A stretch of DNA of 64,000 bases. Source: Stenotrophomonas hibiscicola ATCC 19867 (GTDB taxonomy: Bacteria > Pseudomonadota > Gammaproteobacteria > Xanthomonadales > Xanthomonadaceae). The position numbers and the translations under genes were made by a program. The notes beneath the pieces are model-generated. The model was given only the letters and a program-made list of their open reading frames with translations. It searched no databases and was not told the DNA's origin. Positions 52,136 to 63,022 of this stretch are shown one piece after another; position 1 is the stretch's first letter, and every line of letters starts with the position of its first letter. The stretch covers positions 531,001 through 595,000 of the forward strand of contig NZ_KB907500.1 of assembly GCF_000382065.1 (NCBI RefSeq), given 5' to 3'.

Positions 52136-52281
52136 TGACGTGCTCGAAGGCGCCTTGCCAAGGGGGAGACTGCGGGGTGTTAAGACACCACGACAGTGCC
52201 GAAAGTTGCCGGGTTTGTCACCCGGCCGCGCTCGGTGGAAAACCAGCCTAGCCGGGCCGGTGTAGCAAATTGTGAATGCAT

Positions 52282-57314: not shown

Positions 57315-58586
57315 TCAATCCTTGACGATCTGCGGCGAACCCAAGCCCAGACCGGCGATGCGGCCGACAAGTTCCGCGGCACTGGCATGGTCGCTGGCGG
57401 GAACGCGCAGCCGGAACAGGGTGCGGCCACCGGCGGCGATGTCGCTGATGGTCGCGCCGACAATGCCGGCCGCGTTGAGCTGGCCCATCGCGCGGTTGGC
57501 ATTGTCGCGGCTGGAGAAGCTGGCGACCTGCACCATCACCGCGCCGACCACCTGCTGCGACAGGCTGGGGGCTGCTGCGGTGGCGGGCACCGTACGCACT
57601 GCGGCCGGCGCGACCGTGCGCGGCGCGGCGCTGGCGACTGCAACCGGCGCCATTGTGGGGCTGCGCACCGGCGGTGCGCTCGGCGGCAGGCTGCTGACCG
57701 CCACGTCCGGCACCGCGCTGGCCACGCCCTGTGTGGTGGCCGGCTGGCCACGCGCAGGCGTGGCGTCGGCCGGAAGGCGCTTGACCAGGCGATCGATGTC
57801 GCTGTCGGCGGTGGCACGCGCAGCCGTTACCGGGCGCGTACTGGCCGCCGCGACAGCCGTTTCGGCGGCACGGCGCTCGCGGCGCGACGGCTTCTGCGCT
57901 AGCAGGTTGCCCTCGCCCGGCTGCAACGCGCGCACCTCCACATTGCCGGTACCGCGCTGGGTGATGCCCAGCCGCACTGCGGCGGCATAACTGAGGTCGA
58001 CCACACGGCCATCATGGAACGGGCCACGGTCGTTGACGCGCACAATCACCGACTCGCCGTTGTCCAGGTTGGTCACACGGGCGAAGCTGGGCAGCGGCAG
58101 CGTCTTGTGCGCGGCGGTGAACTGGTACATGTCGTAGACCTCGCGGTTGGAGGTCAGGCGGCCGTGGAACTTGGCGCCGTAGTACGACGCGGTACCGCGC
58201 TCGACATAGTTGCGGGTGTCGTCGAGCACCTTGTACGACTTGCCCAGCACCACGTACGGCGACTTGTTGCCGATGGCCGAACGCTCTTCGGCGGTCACTT
58301 CCGGCTCGGGAATGCAGGCGACGTTGGGAATGTAGTCCGGGGTGCTGTCGCGCACGCCTGGCTTGTACAGCCCCCCGGCGGTGTAGTTGCCGCGCGTGTT
58401 CGGGTCTTCCTTGGCCGCGGCATAGGGCGAGCCTTCCGGGCAATGCGCCGGGCGCGAGCCCCGACCCTGCACCACCGTGCCGCTGGGCTTGCCACCGTGG
58501 CCGGCCGTGGCCGGCTTCTTCGGCGCACTGCTGCAGGCAGCCAGCGCGAGGACGATCAAGCTCGGGACCAGCCATCTGATGTTCAT
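57315..58586 (-). CDS. rlpA: RlpA-family septal-ring lipoprotein with SPOR domain
   Basis: A 423-aa lipoprotein: lipobox VLALAAC, a double-psi beta-barrel domain (about 125-230) with ASYYGAKFHGRLTSNREVYD, VTNLDNGESVIVRVNDRGPF and VVDLSYAAAVRLG, then an Ala/Pro/Val-rich linker and a C-terminal SPOR domain (about 345-420) that binds denuded glycan. In Pseudomonas RlpA is a lytic transglycosylase of naked glycans. The ATG overlaps the mltB stop by 4 nt. Confidence 0.93.
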   Translation of the reverse strand: MNIRWLVPSLIVLALAACSSAPKKPATAGHGGKPSGTVVQGRGSRPAHCPEGSPYAAAKEDPNTRGNYTAGGLYKPGVRDSTPDYIPNVACIPEPEVTAEERSAIGNKSPYVVLGKSYKVLDDTRNYVERGTASYYGAKFHGRLTSNREVYDMYQFTAAHKTLPLPSFARVTNLDNGESVIVRVNDRGPFHDGRVVDLSYAAAVRLGITQRGTGNVEVRALQPGEGNLLAQKPSRRERRAAETAVAAASTRPVTAARATADSDIDRLVKRLPADATPARGQPATTQGVASAVPDVAVSSLPPSAPPVRSPTMAPVAVASAAPRTVAPAAVRTVPATAAAPSLSQQVVGAVMVQVASFSSRDNANRAMGQLNAAGIVGATISDIAAGGRTLFRLRVPASDHASAAELVGRIAGLGLGSPQIVKD

Positions 58587-59728
58587 GCCGGGGGCAGCTC
58601 CTGTCCGGCGATGGCCTGCGACAACTGGAACACGGCCATCGCGTACATCTTCGAGAGGTTGTAGCGGGTGATCGCGTAGTAGTTCTGGAAGCCCAGCCAG
58701 TACTGCTTGCCGGTGCTGCCCTCAAGCGTGATCGGCGTTGCGGTGGCGCCCGGCTGCACCGCAGCGCTGGGCTGGTAGCCGCGCTGGGCCAGGTCGGCCA
58801 GCGACCAGGTCGGCATCCATTCGGTCGGGTTGAACTCCTCGCGACCCGGCGCCAGCGTGGCCGGTACGGCCACCTGGCCACCACGGACCCAGCCGCCCTT
58901 CTTCACGAAATAATTGGCGATGGACGAGAACACATCGTCGTAGCTGGTGAACAGGTCGCGACGGCCATCGCCATTACCGTCCACGGCGTAATCGAGATAG
59001 CTGGACGGCATGAACTGGCCCATGCCCATCGCACCGGCATAGCTGCCCTTGAGCGTGGTGATGTCCAGCTTTTCCTCACGGCCCAGCTCGAACAGCTTGG
59101 CCAGCTCATCGCGGAAGAACAGCTCGCGGCGCACTTCGCGTTCCAGCTTGGCCGGGTCGCCACTGCGCGGGTAGTAGAACGCCAGCGTGTACAGCGCATC
59201 GAGCACGCGGTGGTTGCCGGCATTTTTCCCGTAACTGGTCTCCACGCCGATGATCGCCACGATCACCTCGGCCGGCACGCCGGTGCGCTGCTGCACGCGA
59301 TCCAGTTCGACACGATGCTGGGCCAGGAACGCGCGGCCGCCATCGATGCGTGCCTTGCTGATGAACATCGGCCGGTATTCGTTCCACGGTTTGACCCGTT
59401 CGGCCGGACGCGACATGGCGGCGATGATCGGCTGGCGCACCTGCGCCTGGTCGAGCACGCTGCTGATCTGCTCCGGCCTCAGGCCATAGCGCTTGGCGGT
59501 ATCGGCAATGAAGCGGGCCCGTGCAACCTCGAACGGCACCGGGGTGAGATCGACCGGCGGTGCGGTGGCGGCAGCGGCTTCAGGCGCGGCCTCGGCCGGA
59601 CCATGGGCCTTGGCGGACGGCTGGCGCGGCGTGCTGCTGGCCTGCGGCGAAGACGGTGGGGACTTCGGCTGGGTCGCGCAGGCGACCAGGCCGAGGGTGA
59701 GCATGCAGGCCAGAGTGCGTCGAATCAT
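58583..59728 (-). CDS. mltB: lytic murein transglycosylase B
   Basis: A 381-aa lipoprotein (lipobox LGLVACAT) with an MltB/SLT-2 domain: the catalytic Glu is in IIGVETSYGKNAGNHRVLDAL, followed by YAGAMGMGQFMPSSYLDYAVDGNGDG. A low-complexity Ala/Pro linker separates the lipobox from the enzyme. It cleaves glycan strands in the envelope and is translationally coupled to rlpA. No SPOR or LysM domain is present. Confidence 0.95.
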   Translation of the reverse strand: MIRRTLACMLTLGLVACATQPKSPPSSPQASSTPRQPSAKAHGPAEAAPEAAAATAPPVDLTPVPFEVARARFIADTAKRYGLRPEQISSVLDQAQVRQPIIAAMSRPAERVKPWNEYRPMFISKARIDGGRAFLAQHRVELDRVQQRTGVPAEVIVAIIGVETSYGKNAGNHRVLDALYTLAFYYPRSGDPAKLEREVRRELFFRDELAKLFELGREEKLDITTLKGSYAGAMGMGQFMPSSYLDYAVDGNGDGRRDLFTSYDDVFSSIANYFVKKGGWVRGGQVAVPATLAPGREEFNPTEWMPTWSLADLAQRGYQPSAAVQPGATATPITLEGSTGKQYWLGFQNYYAITRYNLSKMYAMAVFQLSQAIAGQELPPA

Positions 59729-59852
59729 CGTCGCAGGTTAGCAGGTCATGGATGAATTAAAACCCCTAACACCATGAATCACAACGATTTGCCCCCGTTC
59801 AGCGGGAAATGTGAAGACGTCGTGATCGGGCTTCCCCATTCAGATAGAGGTG

Positions 59853-59888
59853 GCCGGTTGCGTCCCCATCCCCGCAGACGCAACCGGC
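59853..59888. repeat. 12-bp perfect hairpin with C-rich loop
   Basis: GCCGGTTGCGTC and GACGCAACCGGC enclose CCCATCCCCGCA. A second self-complementary stretch, GACCGGATCCGGTC, follows at 59889-59902. It lies in a 940-bp gene-free region and could be part of a small RNA or a leader. Confidence 0.45.
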
Positions 59889-60061
59889 GACCGGATCCGG
59901 TCGGTACCTGCGCGGCTGCCGCTCCCCAGTGACAGTTCCCCGCGCTCCCTGTACCCGTTGGATCAGTACTGCTCCCGCCCGACGCCCCCTCGCGCTGCAT
60001 CGATTGACGGCGCGCCGTGCCGAACGGGCCGCCATTGTGCAGGCCGATTACGACAAGTCCA

Positions 60062-60075
60062 TTGATCAAGATCAA
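60062..60075. promoter_or_regulatory. perfect FNR/Anr-type box
   Basis: TTGATCAAGATCAA matches TTGATnnnnATCAA exactly. Leftward, a -10-like CACAAT (complement of 60034-60039) is at the spacing of an Anr-activated promoter with the box near -41. The predicted transcript would start near 60027, about 300 nt before mltB. No obvious open reading frame begins there. Confidence 0.6.
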
Positions 60076-60259
60076 CGCGGCGTAAAAATGTGAACCAGCT
60101 AACGTTTTTTGCGGACTTTGGTCAGCGGGTGTGCTGTCGTGCAGCGTTGTGAGAACGCTTCCATAACCGGCGTTGCGCAGAGTCAGGAAGTTTCCAGCCG
60201 TCGGCTCAGCCCCTCGTGGGTGGTGTCTGGGTGGTCGCGGAAAGGAGAAGCCGCGGGTG

Positions 60260-60363
60260 GGCCGGTCGGGTTGGGTGCGCGGGGGACGCCGTGAATCCGT
60301 CCCTGGAGGCTTGGCAGCCGCATCCATGCGGCTGACACCCCCGCGTACCCAACCCGACCGGCC
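60260..60363. repeat. nested long inverted repeat, copy C
   Basis: Arms 60260-60285 and 60338-60363 pair over 26 positions with one G-T (G-U in RNA) pair. The 52-nt centre (60286-60337) has an inner palindrome, AGCCGCATCCATGCGGCT. The centre is nearly the same as in copy B, but the arms differ. Confidence 0.88.
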
Positions 60364-60503
60364 TCTGACAGATTTCGGAGGTCTGCCACCCACGGAGAAG
60401 AAAAAGAAGATCAAAAGATCGCGACGCTGCGCTTGCTCGTGACCCGAGCATGGATCGGCTCTACACAAGGCAATGAAGCGACCCGCCAGGCCGACCTGTC
60501 CGT

Positions 60504-60607
60504 GGCCGGGTAGATGGGCTGCGCAGGGGCGTGAGCCGCATGGATGCGGCGACCGAGCTTACATGGATGTACTTGCAGCGTCCCCTGCGCGGCCCATCTA
60601 CCCGGCC
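60504..60607. repeat. nested long inverted repeat, copy D
   Basis: Arms of 26 nt (about 60504-60529 and 60582-60607) pair with one U-G-type mismatch. The 50-nt centre (60531-60580) is nearly identical to that of copy A. It is inverted relative to copy C, about 140 bp away. Apart from copies C and D, the Anr-type box and the hairpin near 59.86 kb, the region 59729-60666 has nothing I can call a gene. Confidence 0.88.
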
Positions 60608-60666
60608 CCACCCATGAACTGCTTTGCGCGGTCATCCACGAGGGGCTGCGCCGTTGGCTGGAAACC

Positions 60667-61761
60667 CTATCCCCCGTGCACGGGTCGGTGCCCGCGCACC
60701 GCCATCACCAGCCCGATACCCGCCAGCAGCGACACCGCCGAGGTACCGCCATAACTGATCAACGGCATCGGAATGCCCACCACCGGCAGCAGGCCGGAAA
60801 TCATCCCGCCGTTCACCAGTACGTACACGAAGAACGCCAACCCCAGGCTGCCGGCCAGCAACCTTGCGTGCGTGTCGCGGGCGTGCACCGCGATCCACAG
60901 GCAGCGGCCGACCACGAACAGGTACAGCGCAAACACGGTGGCCACGCCGATCCAGCCGAACTCTTCGGCCAGCACCGAGAACGCGAAGTCCGTGGTGTAC
61001 TCAGGCAGGAAGTCCAGCGTGGCCTGGGTGCCCTGCCCCCAGCCACGACCCTGCCAGCCACCGGAACCGATCGCGATGCGTGACTGCAGGATGTTCCAGC
61101 CGGTGCCGAGCGGGTCTGCCGCCGGATCGAGGAAGGTCAGCACGCGATCCTTCTGGTACTGACGCAACAGACCGAACCATGCCAGGGGTGCGGCCACCGC
61201 AAGCCCTGTTGCCCCGGTCGCCACCCATCCCCAGTGCAGGCCCGCCAGCAACAAGGCGAACACGCCGCTGGCGGTGACCAGCGTTGCGGTACCGAGGTTG
61301 GGCTGCATCAGGATCAGTACTGCAGGCATGCCGATCAGCACCGCAGCCGTCAGTACCGTGCGTGGCGACGGCGGCAGCGGTTGGCGATGCAGGTACCAGG
61401 CCATCATCAGCGGCAGGCTGAGCTTGAGCAGTTCGGACGGTTGCAGGTAGAACACGCCGAGGTTGAGCCAGCGCTGCCCGTATTTGCCGGTGCCGACCAC
61501 GTAGACCGCCATCAGCGGCAGCATCGACAACGCATACAACGCTGGTGTCCACGCCCGCAGGCGCAGCAGCGAAACACGCGACAGCAGCCACATCGCCACC
61601 AGGCCACCGGCAAAGCGCGCCGCCTGCCCGGCCACGGGGCCGGACACGCTGTGCAGCACCGCCAGGCCGACGCCCATCAGGATCAACAACGCAACCAGCA
61701 ACGGCAGATCGATCGTGCGCACCGCCTCACGGCAGCCGCCAAGCAGTCGTTTCCATTCCAC
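60667..61761 (-). CDS. RodA-family peptidoglycan glycosyltransferase, first paralogue
   Basis: A 364-aa SEDS protein with about ten membrane helices: GKYGQRWLNLGVFYLQPSE, the conserved catalytic-region Asp in PEYTTDFAFSVLAEEFG, and GIPMPLISYGGTSAV at the end. All hallmark residues of an active RodA are kept. It is closely related to the next gene and is strikingly similar to it at DNA level near the 3' end, so it is a tandem duplicate. The GTG at 61761 has no clear ribosome-binding site. It is separated from the second rodA by a SMAG dimer. Confidence 0.9.
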   Translation of the reverse strand: MEWKRLLGGCREAVRTIDLPLLVALLILMGVGLAVLHSVSGPVAGQAARFAGGLVAMWLLSRVSLLRLRAWTPALYALSMLPLMAVYVVGTGKYGQRWLNLGVFYLQPSELLKLSLPLMMAWYLHRQPLPPSPRTVLTAAVLIGMPAVLILMQPNLGTATLVTASGVFALLLAGLHWGWVATGATGLAVAAPLAWFGLLRQYQKDRVLTFLDPAADPLGTGWNILQSRIAIGSGGWQGRGWGQGTQATLDFLPEYTTDFAFSVLAEEFGWIGVATVFALYLFVVGRCLWIAVHARDTHARLLAGSLGLAFFVYVLVNGGMISGLLPVVGIPMPLISYGGTSAVSLLAGIGLVMAVRGHRPVHGG

Positions 61762-61814
61762 ACGGCCACGGTAGCAATGCGTGCTTGCGTGAAGCTGTCA
61801 GCGCGGTGCCGCAT

Positions 61815-61880
61815 TTGTAGAGTCGAGCCATGCCCGACTGCCTTTCATACAGCAGAAGCAGCCGAGCATGGCTCGGCTCT
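61815..61880. repeat. SMAG dimer between the two rodA copies
   Basis: GTAGAGTCGAGCC... at 61815 and an inverted partner ending CTAC at 61880. It may uncouple transcription of the two paralogues. Confidence 0.9.
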
Positions 61881-61909
61881 ACAAGAATCAGGAGCAGGAA
61901 GCGCGGCGG

Positions 61910-63022
61910 CTAGCCGTAGCCGCCGTGCACCGGGTTGTGGCTGCGCACCGCCATCACCAGGCCGAAGCCGGCCAGCAGTGACACCGCCGAGGTACCGCCG
62001 TAACTGATCAGCGGCATCGGCACGCCCACCACCGGCAGCAGGCCGGAAATCATCCCGCCGTTGACCAGTACGTAGACGAAGAATGCCAGTCCGGTGGCCC
62101 CGGCAAGCAGGCGCGAATAGGAATCGCGCGATTGGCTGGCAATCCACAGGCAACGCCCGATCACCAGCAGGTACAGCGCCAGCACGGTGGCCACGCCGAT
62201 CCAGCCGAATTCCTCGCTCAGCACCGAGAACGCGAAGTCGGTGGTCTGCTCGGGAATGAAGTTCAGGTGCGACTGCGAGCCCTCGCCCCAGCCCTTGCCA
62301 TCGAAGCCCCCGGAACCGATCGCGATCTTCGACTGGATGATGTTCCAGCCGGCGCCAAGCGCGTCCATTTCCGGGTCCAGGAACATCATGATGCGGTCCT
62401 TCTGGTACGGCCGCAGCAGCCAGAACCAGGCCACCGGCGCGACCGCGGCCACGCCGCCTACGCCCAGCCCGACCCACCACCACGGCAGGCCTGCCAGCAG
62501 CAGCACGAACACGCCACTGGCGGCGATCAGCACACCGGTGCCGAAGTCCGGCTGCAGCATCACCAGGCCGGTCGGTACGCCGATGATGACCAAGGCCACG
62601 AGCACGGTATTGAAGCGCGGTGGCAGCGGCATCCTGTGCAGGTACCAGGCCACCATCATCGGCAGGCTCACCTTCAGCAGCTCGGCCGGCTGCAGGTAGA
62701 AGAACTTCAGGTCCAGCCACTGCCGGCCATACTTGCCGGTGCCGAGCACGAACACCGCCAGCAACGGAATCATCGAGATCGCATAGATCATCGGCGTGGC
62801 CGAGCGGATGCGCAGGATAGGCACGCGCGAGATGCCCCACAGCGCCGCCATGCCCACCGCGAAGCGCGCGCCCTGGGCCATCACCAGGCTGTCGCCTCCG
62901 GCACTCTTCAGGGTCGCCAGGCCGATCACCATCAGCGCGCCGAGGGCCAGGCACAGCACCCAGTCCAGCGTACTGAAGAAGCGGCGCAGCATGTCGCCGG
63001 CCCAACGCAGGAACACTCTCAT
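61910..63022 (-). CDS. rodA: rod shape-determining protein RodA
   Basis: A 370-aa SEDS glycosyltransferase of the elongasome with about ten helices, GKYGRQWLDLKFFYLQPAE, PEQTTDFAFSVLSEEFG (catalytic-region Asp) and GVPMPLISYGGTSAV. It polymerises lipid II together with PBP2. Its ATG overlaps the mrdA stop by 4 nt, as expected for the RodA-PBP2 pair; this makes it the canonical copy of the two paralogues. Confidence 0.95.
   Translation of the reverse strand: MRVFLRWAGDMLRRFFSTLDWVLCLALGALMVIGLATLKSAGGDSLVMAQGARFAVGMAALWGISRVPILRIRSATPMIYAISMIPLLAVFVLGTGKYGRQWLDLKFFYLQPAELLKVSLPMMVAWYLHRMPLPPRFNTVLVALVIIGVPTGLVMLQPDFGTGVLIAASGVFVLLLAGLPWWWVGLGVGGVAAVAPVAWFWLLRPYQKDRIMMFLDPEMDALGAGWNIIQSKIAIGSGGFDGKGWGEGSQSHLNFIPEQTTDFAFSVLSEEFGWIGVATVLALYLLVIGRCLWIASQSRDSYSRLLAGATGLAFFVYVLVNGGMISGLLPVVGVPMPLISYGGTSAVSLLAGFGLVMAVRSHNPVHGGYG

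Follow-up and report, generated by a model that had tools for sequence, protein, structure and literature searches.

The window analysed here is a stretch of 64,000 nucleotides of the Stenotrophomonas hibiscicola ATCC 19867 genome, and the features of interest lie near its right end, in the interval that separates a rodA-type gene from an ORF that we take to be mltB (lytic transglycosylase). Upstream of this interval, positions 60667-63022 of the minus strand carry two tandem genes of 364 and 370 amino acids, presumably both RodA-like, the second of which adjoins the RNA described below. The rodA-mltB interval is of variable size, ranging from 319 to 1326 nt between genomes. In our window the part between rodA and the box holds nested inverted repeats (60190-60665), whose outer arms occupy 60190-60222 and 60633-60665 (33 nt, 88%). 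Two REP-like hairpins of 26 nt, 96% complementary, are found at 60260-60363 and 60504-60607. Several microRNA-type Rfam matches at 60216-60624, all of them below the gathering score, represent these REP-like inverted repeats and were rejected. The features that concern us lie on the mltB side of the repeats and are collected in Table 1.

Table 1. Features between the repeats and mltB, with positions in the window
Feature	Position	Strand	Remarks
FNR/ANR box TTGATCTTGATCAA (minus-strand reading)	60062..60075	-	-41.5 from predicted start; exact palindrome
-10 element CACAAT	60034..60039	-	ACAAT/ACACT 37 nt from box start in relatives
Predicted FNR-dependent small RNA	59840..60027	-	about 185-190 nt; both ends inferred
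Hairpin 1, loop UGGGGAG	59916..59935	-	loop is + strand 59922-59928; stem in 17 printed local folds
Hairpin 2, loop GGGGAUGGGG	59853..59888	-	loop is + strand 59864-59873; terminator-like
mltB, next gene downstream	58583..59728	-	ORF of 381 aa; probably own promoter

The box, TTGATCAAGATCAA at 60062-60075, is an exact palindrome and the sole match in the window when up to one mismatch is allowed. A site of this kind is not improbable within the window by itself, because 34 of 100 window shuffles contained at least one match at the same tolerance. A generic promoter and terminator scan of 59500-60500 reported nothing, and the 299-nt leader folds modestly better than its shuffles (z -1.81). The case therefore rests on comparison between genomes. 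For this purpose, leader DNA was searched against 61 genomes of the genus, mltB was located in each fetched locus and its upstream region was inspected. A perfect box was present 287 to 524 nt before mltB in 54 of 55 loci; further loci were added afterwards, namely G004 (missed by BLAST), G012, G029 and G042, then G216 and G218. The consensus TTGATNNNNATCAA is perfect in 58 of 61 orthologous RNA-bearing loci, its ten specified bases being conserved to 97-100% and the two central ones to only 52%. The imperfect cases keep the RNA: G029 and G042 have two mismatches each and G003 has lost the box, and the -10 element is retained in all three despite this.

The centre of CACAAT (minus strand, 60039-60034) is 32 bp away from the centre of the box. 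With any distance above 30 nt allowed, ACAAT or ACACT began exactly 37 nt from the start of the box in every one of the 54 box-bearing loci, while the selection of the 61 loci itself imposed the 37-nt register. The fixed position of the -10 element puts the predicted start near 60027 and the box at -41.5, which would be a class II arrangement. The geometry of an FNR/ANR promoter, a site around -41.5 together with a fixed -10, is thus found here relative to a start that is predicted. The first-pass annotation had named both a perfect Anr/FNR box and a -10-like CACAAT leftward of it, and the comparison, which shows the putative promoter and its box to be conserved, agrees on both counts.

Further, the box has appropriate company in the genome. 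Exact TTGATNNNNATCAA sites number nine genome-wide, against none for the reversed-pattern control. Examination of the flanks placed seven of the other eight boxes just before genes expected for an oxygen-responsive regulator; the remaining one (contig C3, 59862) is without a clear gene. Pfam confirmed, from partial proteins, cytochrome bd oxidase subunit I (cydA), an OmpW-family protein, a bacterial globin, a hemerythrin and a zinc alcohol dehydrogenase as neighbours of boxes, and a CydD-like gene lies on the opposite side of the cydA box. A NarK-like transporter and a cytochrome-c-like protein, at two boxes, were identified by eye and were not named by Pfam. The candidate regulators are encoded as well. 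Among ten HTH_Crp_2 matches in the genome, two CRP-family proteins (L031 and L032) have clustered cysteines close to the N terminus, another cysteine further on and a recognition helix of the ExxSR type, as judged by eye; we take these to be the hallmarks of FNR-type oxygen sensors. Judged by its sequence and neighbourhoods, the box is a member of a genuine FNR/ANR regulon.

The box had initially been considered an orphan, with no gene directly downstream. This was wrong, since a conserved RNA gene lies behind it in 88 of 91 Stenotrophomonas genomes, as counted from direct views and from the pattern of the two hairpin loops. The loop pair occurs in 84 of 91 genomes; the matches of G003 and G216 lie elsewhere, which leaves 82, and six carriers of variant loops recognized by synteny (G003, G004, G018, G051, G216 and G218) were added. 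As for the three remaining genomes, G015 and G016 have no mltB locus in their assemblies. In G233 the region 5´ of mltB differs and no RNA was seen upstream of mltB; its locus (L174) was dropped from the set of 61.

Across the genus, conservation extends on the mltB side of the box as far as hairpin 2, and much less on the opposite side (mean ungapped identity over 45 nt in the same register 0.68 vs 0.44), which argues for leftward transcription. A rightward promoter or transcript was rejected, as that flank is the less conserved one and contains the inverted-repeat elements. A protein-coding gene was rejected too. Some ORF of at least 15 aa is present inside the RNA in 20 of 59 loci, but the sampled ORFs differ from one another and are not common to the genomes in the sampled list; no ORF looks conserved over the 59 loci, in agreement with the earlier impression that no convincing one follows the box.

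Two hairpins are common to the loci. The covariance model R1 scores above threshold in all 59 loci, 35 of whose sequences were used to build it. In hairpin 2, 99.7% of cells are paired over 54 distinct sequences, with compensatory changes in 8 of 13 pairs. Pairing over the whole structure, 86%, falls to 27-51% when the partners are slid by 1-3 columns; the alignment was fitted to the covariance model and is to this extent biased in favour of the structure. Since the groups differ in the lengths of its loop and stem, hairpin 1 is paired in only 44.7% of cells in a single alignment register; all 17 local folds shown have a stem around its GGGG core. When the hairpins are folded in isolation to minimum energy, the G-rich core is left fully open in only 14 of 59 cases for hairpin 1 and 16 of 59 for hairpin 2, weak inner pairs being responsible for the partly closed loops, and the mean unpaired probability of the core is 0.63 and 0.74, respectively.

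The loops themselves are almost invariant. Hairpin 1 displays UGGGGAG in 56 of 59 loci; hairpin 2 contains GGGAUGGG in 58 of 59 (GGGAUG likewise in 58 of 59) and the full GGGGAUGGG in 50 of 59. This tally omits G216 and G218, in which the loop of hairpin 1 reads GGGGGAG. Hairpin 2 had been noticed before as a hairpin with a C-rich loop: the hairpin is real, but its loop is C-rich only on the plus strand and G-rich in the predicted transcript, and we regard the latter as a pointer to function. The 3´ end is less clear. Four or more T follow hairpin 2 in 11 of 59 loci, mostly divergent ones, and the tail in the S. maltophilia group is CCUCUAUCU, without a U-run terminator, so termination is uncertain in this group.

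Rfam 15 contains no family that scores above the gathering threshold in 59500-60800 (E up to 5), nor did any reach it in seven RNA loci; a searched plasmid collection gave no match, and no description of the RNA was found in open-licence PMC literature. The small RNA behind the box is, in this sense, previously undescribed, and it belongs to nearly the whole genus. The comparison strongly supports the idea of an anaerobically induced sRNA transcribed leftward with its start at about 60027, and shows the predicted RNA, hairpin 2 and the invariant loops to be shared between genomes; induction at low oxygen would be the expected consequence of the box. Existence of the RNA and its putative control by FNR are well supported, and that a genuine FNR-driven RNA is made at this locus seems to us very probable.

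Outside the genus the situation is different. Among named species genomes, the exact hairpin-2 pattern matches 33 stretches, of which 31 are titled Stenotrophomonas. One of the two other records comes from Xanthomonas chitinilytica; the second (L201), a contig titled Bacillus subtilis SK7B5 that carries the Stenotrophomonas hairpin, is probably a contaminant or wrongly labelled. In other genera, 26 mltB loci (L088-L113) were inspected and none had a box within the 900 nt upstream; two of them have a site about 1.3 kb upstream, one exact and one with a mismatch. The rodA-mltB interval is short in those genera where rodA was seen. Searching 149 genomes of the family under strict filters, R1 recovered all six that belong to the genus and outside it only weak matches (E 0.0036 or worse), which is not proof of absence; two of these, checked for context (L078 and L079), had no box. 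By a count made by eye, the loop-pair pattern matches in 16 of 143 genomes of other genera vs 9 of 143 for the reversed pattern, which is near background. With no mltB-proximal box, weak R1 matches and a loop-pair frequency of this order, we rejected the presence of the same RNA in other genera.

The G-rich loops suggest a partner. sX13 is described as a Xanthomonas sRNA with C-rich loops, a repressor of mRNAs that carry G-rich motifs close to their start codons; its gene adjoins polA, it was reported also in S. maltophilia, it is constitutive and abundant in Xanthomonas, and it controls virulence, motility and hfq there (PMC3771888). In the S. hibiscicola genome, too, we found sX13 beside polA; across the genus, 59 of 61 genomes contain it. 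In the Rfam structure, loop 1 of sX13 reads CAUCCCCU and loop 2 reads CCUCCCCA. The stretch CCCAUCCCC, i.e. loop 1 with two stem bases, is the exact complement of GGGGAUGGG in hairpin 2, and the hairpin-1 loop UGGGGAG is complementary in every base to CUCCCCA in loop 2, so each hairpin loop of the RNA has 7-nt complementarity to one sX13 loop. CCCAUCCCCU and CUCCCCA follow each other in this order in 49 of 50 fetched sX13 copies, the exception being a weak second match in G039. Pairing of hairpin 1 with loop 2 and of hairpin 2 with loop 1 is the antiparallel order needed for two simultaneous contacts.

How easily could such a match arise? Both loops matched over 7 nt in a fraction of 0.0006 of 20,000 letter shuffles, and of 0.0023 when GGGG was kept whole. 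Of the 64 NGGGGNN heptamers a single one fits sX13 loop 2, and the RNA has precisely this one; the same applies to GGGGNNN and loop 1. The calculated energies of the cognate loop duplexes are -12.2 and -12.6 kcal/mol, those of the other pairs -9.1 to -10.2. For comparison, of 505 hairpin loops in the window two are complementary to an sX13 loop over 7 nt, hairpin 2 being one of them. Some caution about the match is required, as G-rich loops are able to pair with any CCCC. Because the loops of both RNAs hardly vary, compensatory change between them cannot be shown. The comparison shows the complementarity to sX13 to be shared, and specific complementarity to the active region of an sRNA, as expected for the sponge class, is what we find. 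Many RNAs of the S. maltophilia group have an extra, variable AGGGGG in the 5´ part, which could meet sX13 loop 3; a further G4 run is present in 49 of 59 RNAs. Two observations are added here for completeness. A hairpin loop CAAGGGGGAGACT at window position 52159 (plus strand) is a 7-nt complement of sX13 loop 3, and in one locus (L155, G033:C392) the sX13 region seems to be partly duplicated around a stretch of N, probably an assembly effect.

We propose the following model. At low oxygen, an FNR-type regulator would activate the class II promoter at the box. Throughout Stenotrophomonas, this promoter would make a small non-coding RNA of about 150-190 nt between the rodA-type gene and mltB. 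The RNA would fold into two hairpins that display UGGGGAG and GGGGAUGGG, and these loops may grip loops 2 and 1 of sX13 in a double kissing complex. With two of its three loops occupied, sX13 would be sequestered, and repression of mRNAs with G-rich translation-initiation regions would be relieved. From the sequences, we consider it rather likely that the RNA is an FNR-activated, trans-encoded antagonist (sponge) of sX13. The complete picture of a genus-wide oxygen switch, in which a dedicated FNR-made antagonist frees sX13-repressed G-rich translation enhancers through two loop-loop contacts, we hold to be about evenly balanced between true and false.

The main alternative is an FNR-activated sRNA that acts directly on C-rich mRNA sites, the sX13 match being a by-product of its G-rich loops. 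A conserved promoter and RNA are equally expected in this case, and FNR/Anr-driven sRNAs that act on mRNAs are known, e.g. SicX (PMC10247376). It is nevertheless unlikely, since the bases flanking GGGG are, in nearly all loci, exactly the ones needed for pairing with sX13 (U..AG in 56 of 59, GGGAUG in 58 of 59), whereas the chance that a flank set fits a given sX13 loop is 1 in 64.

The first-pass annotation had offered, as its second option, a long regulated leader of mltB. FNR-dependent readthrough would then raise or lower mltB-rlpA-dacC at low oxygen. mltB does lie directly downstream on the same strand in 59 of 59 loci, most of which lack a strong terminator. The stretch between RNA and mltB, however, varies in length and sequence between genomes: the box-mltB distance ranges from 287 to 524 nt and the spacer cannot be aligned between groups. 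Moreover, a compact promoter-like element, CTGCTAACCT, is conserved directly at mltB in the alignments, with ATG a few bases on, and in some relatives hairpin 2 is followed by a U-run. We therefore consider the leader improbable, though less so for the S. maltophilia group, in which the RNA has no U-run terminator.

A third possibility is that the RNA sequesters RsmA/CsrA and titrates it at low oxygen by the GGA of its loops. One CsrA-family gene is present in the genome and both hairpin loops contain GGA. The core consensus of RsmA/CsrA is ANGGA, and it occurs at a loop in 0 of 59 loci, on which ground we rejected this candidate; total GGA is only slightly above shuffles (8 RNAs), and RsmA binding would give no reason for the constant U..AG and AUG flanks. 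We judge the proposal quite improbable, even if there is a precedent in RsmU, described as an RsmA-binding RNA outside the known families, which derives from the 3´ UTR of ComEA mRNA and is confined to Xanthomonas (PMC7694677); by this description, the Stenotrophomonas RNA lies at a different locus. Finally, the same loop complementarity, together with the constitutive and abundant expression of sX13 reported for Xanthomonas (PMC3771888), would let sX13 regulate the RNA, e.g. by promoting its decay, which is highly improbable because the RNA has no conserved protein worth regulating and sX13 is family-wide and older than the RNA.

Returning to sX13 antagonism, several known systems resemble it in one respect or another. 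SprY, a trans-encoded structured sRNA of Staphylococcus aureus, is described as titrating RNAIII by base pairing and thereby changing the effect on the mRNA targets of its partner (PMC9266662). RNAIII in turn is likened to sX13 in having C-rich loops that bind ribosome-binding sites (PMC3771888). SprY differs from the Stenotrophomonas RNA in organism and sequence, which are unrelated; the review of SprY leaves the condition of its expression open, whereas the Stenotrophomonas RNA would have an FNR promoter and, we infer, two loops per RNA in contact. CJnc180 antagonises CJnc190 in Campylobacter jejuni (PMC8687705), but it is a cis-encoded antisense RNA, whereas the partner of the Stenotrophomonas RNA is encoded elsewhere in the genome and the contact would be loop-loop. 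SicX of Pseudomonas aeruginosa is likewise made from an Anr/FNR-type promoter under low oxygen, but acts on the ubiUVT leader (PMC10247376); its sequence, locus and proposed partner are other ones. As far as can be told from their descriptions, none of the three shares the sequence or locus of our RNA. sX13 itself (Rfam RF02232) has similar architecture, being a multi-hairpin RNA of Hfq-independent type from Xanthomonadaceae with functional apical loops. Its loops are complementary and C-rich, its locus is polA and its expression constitutive, so that we see in it a proposed partner, not a relative.

If our assumptions are true, the RNA would be an sX13 sponge, of which we found no description in open-licence PMC literature, and FNR would be directly linked to the titration of an sRNA. 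Among the post-transcriptional regulators of Xanthomonadaceae, sX13 is a major one, and Stenotrophomonas lacks a type III secretion system; with an oxygen-controlled antagonist, sX13 would gain an off switch that depends on conditions, and a physiological role open to testing. The case is also an example of how comparative genomics can start from a single orphan box and arrive at an RNA-RNA circuit absent from Rfam.

Two minor observations concern the borders of the region. Just before mltB, at window positions 59729-59785, a block TTCATGG..TTAGGGGTTTTAATTCATC..GACCTGCTAACCT is strongly conserved; since its -10-like TAACCT is followed within a few bases by ATG, mltB mRNA may be leaderless. On the other border, a GTG-N10-CAC dyad lies some 30 nt to the right of the box, on its upstream side. 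It has the one fixed offset of -30 in 19 of 61 loci, which belong for the most part to one group, and could possibly be the site of a second regulator; as a control, spacers of N8, N9, N11 or N12 together occur in 6 of 61 loci.
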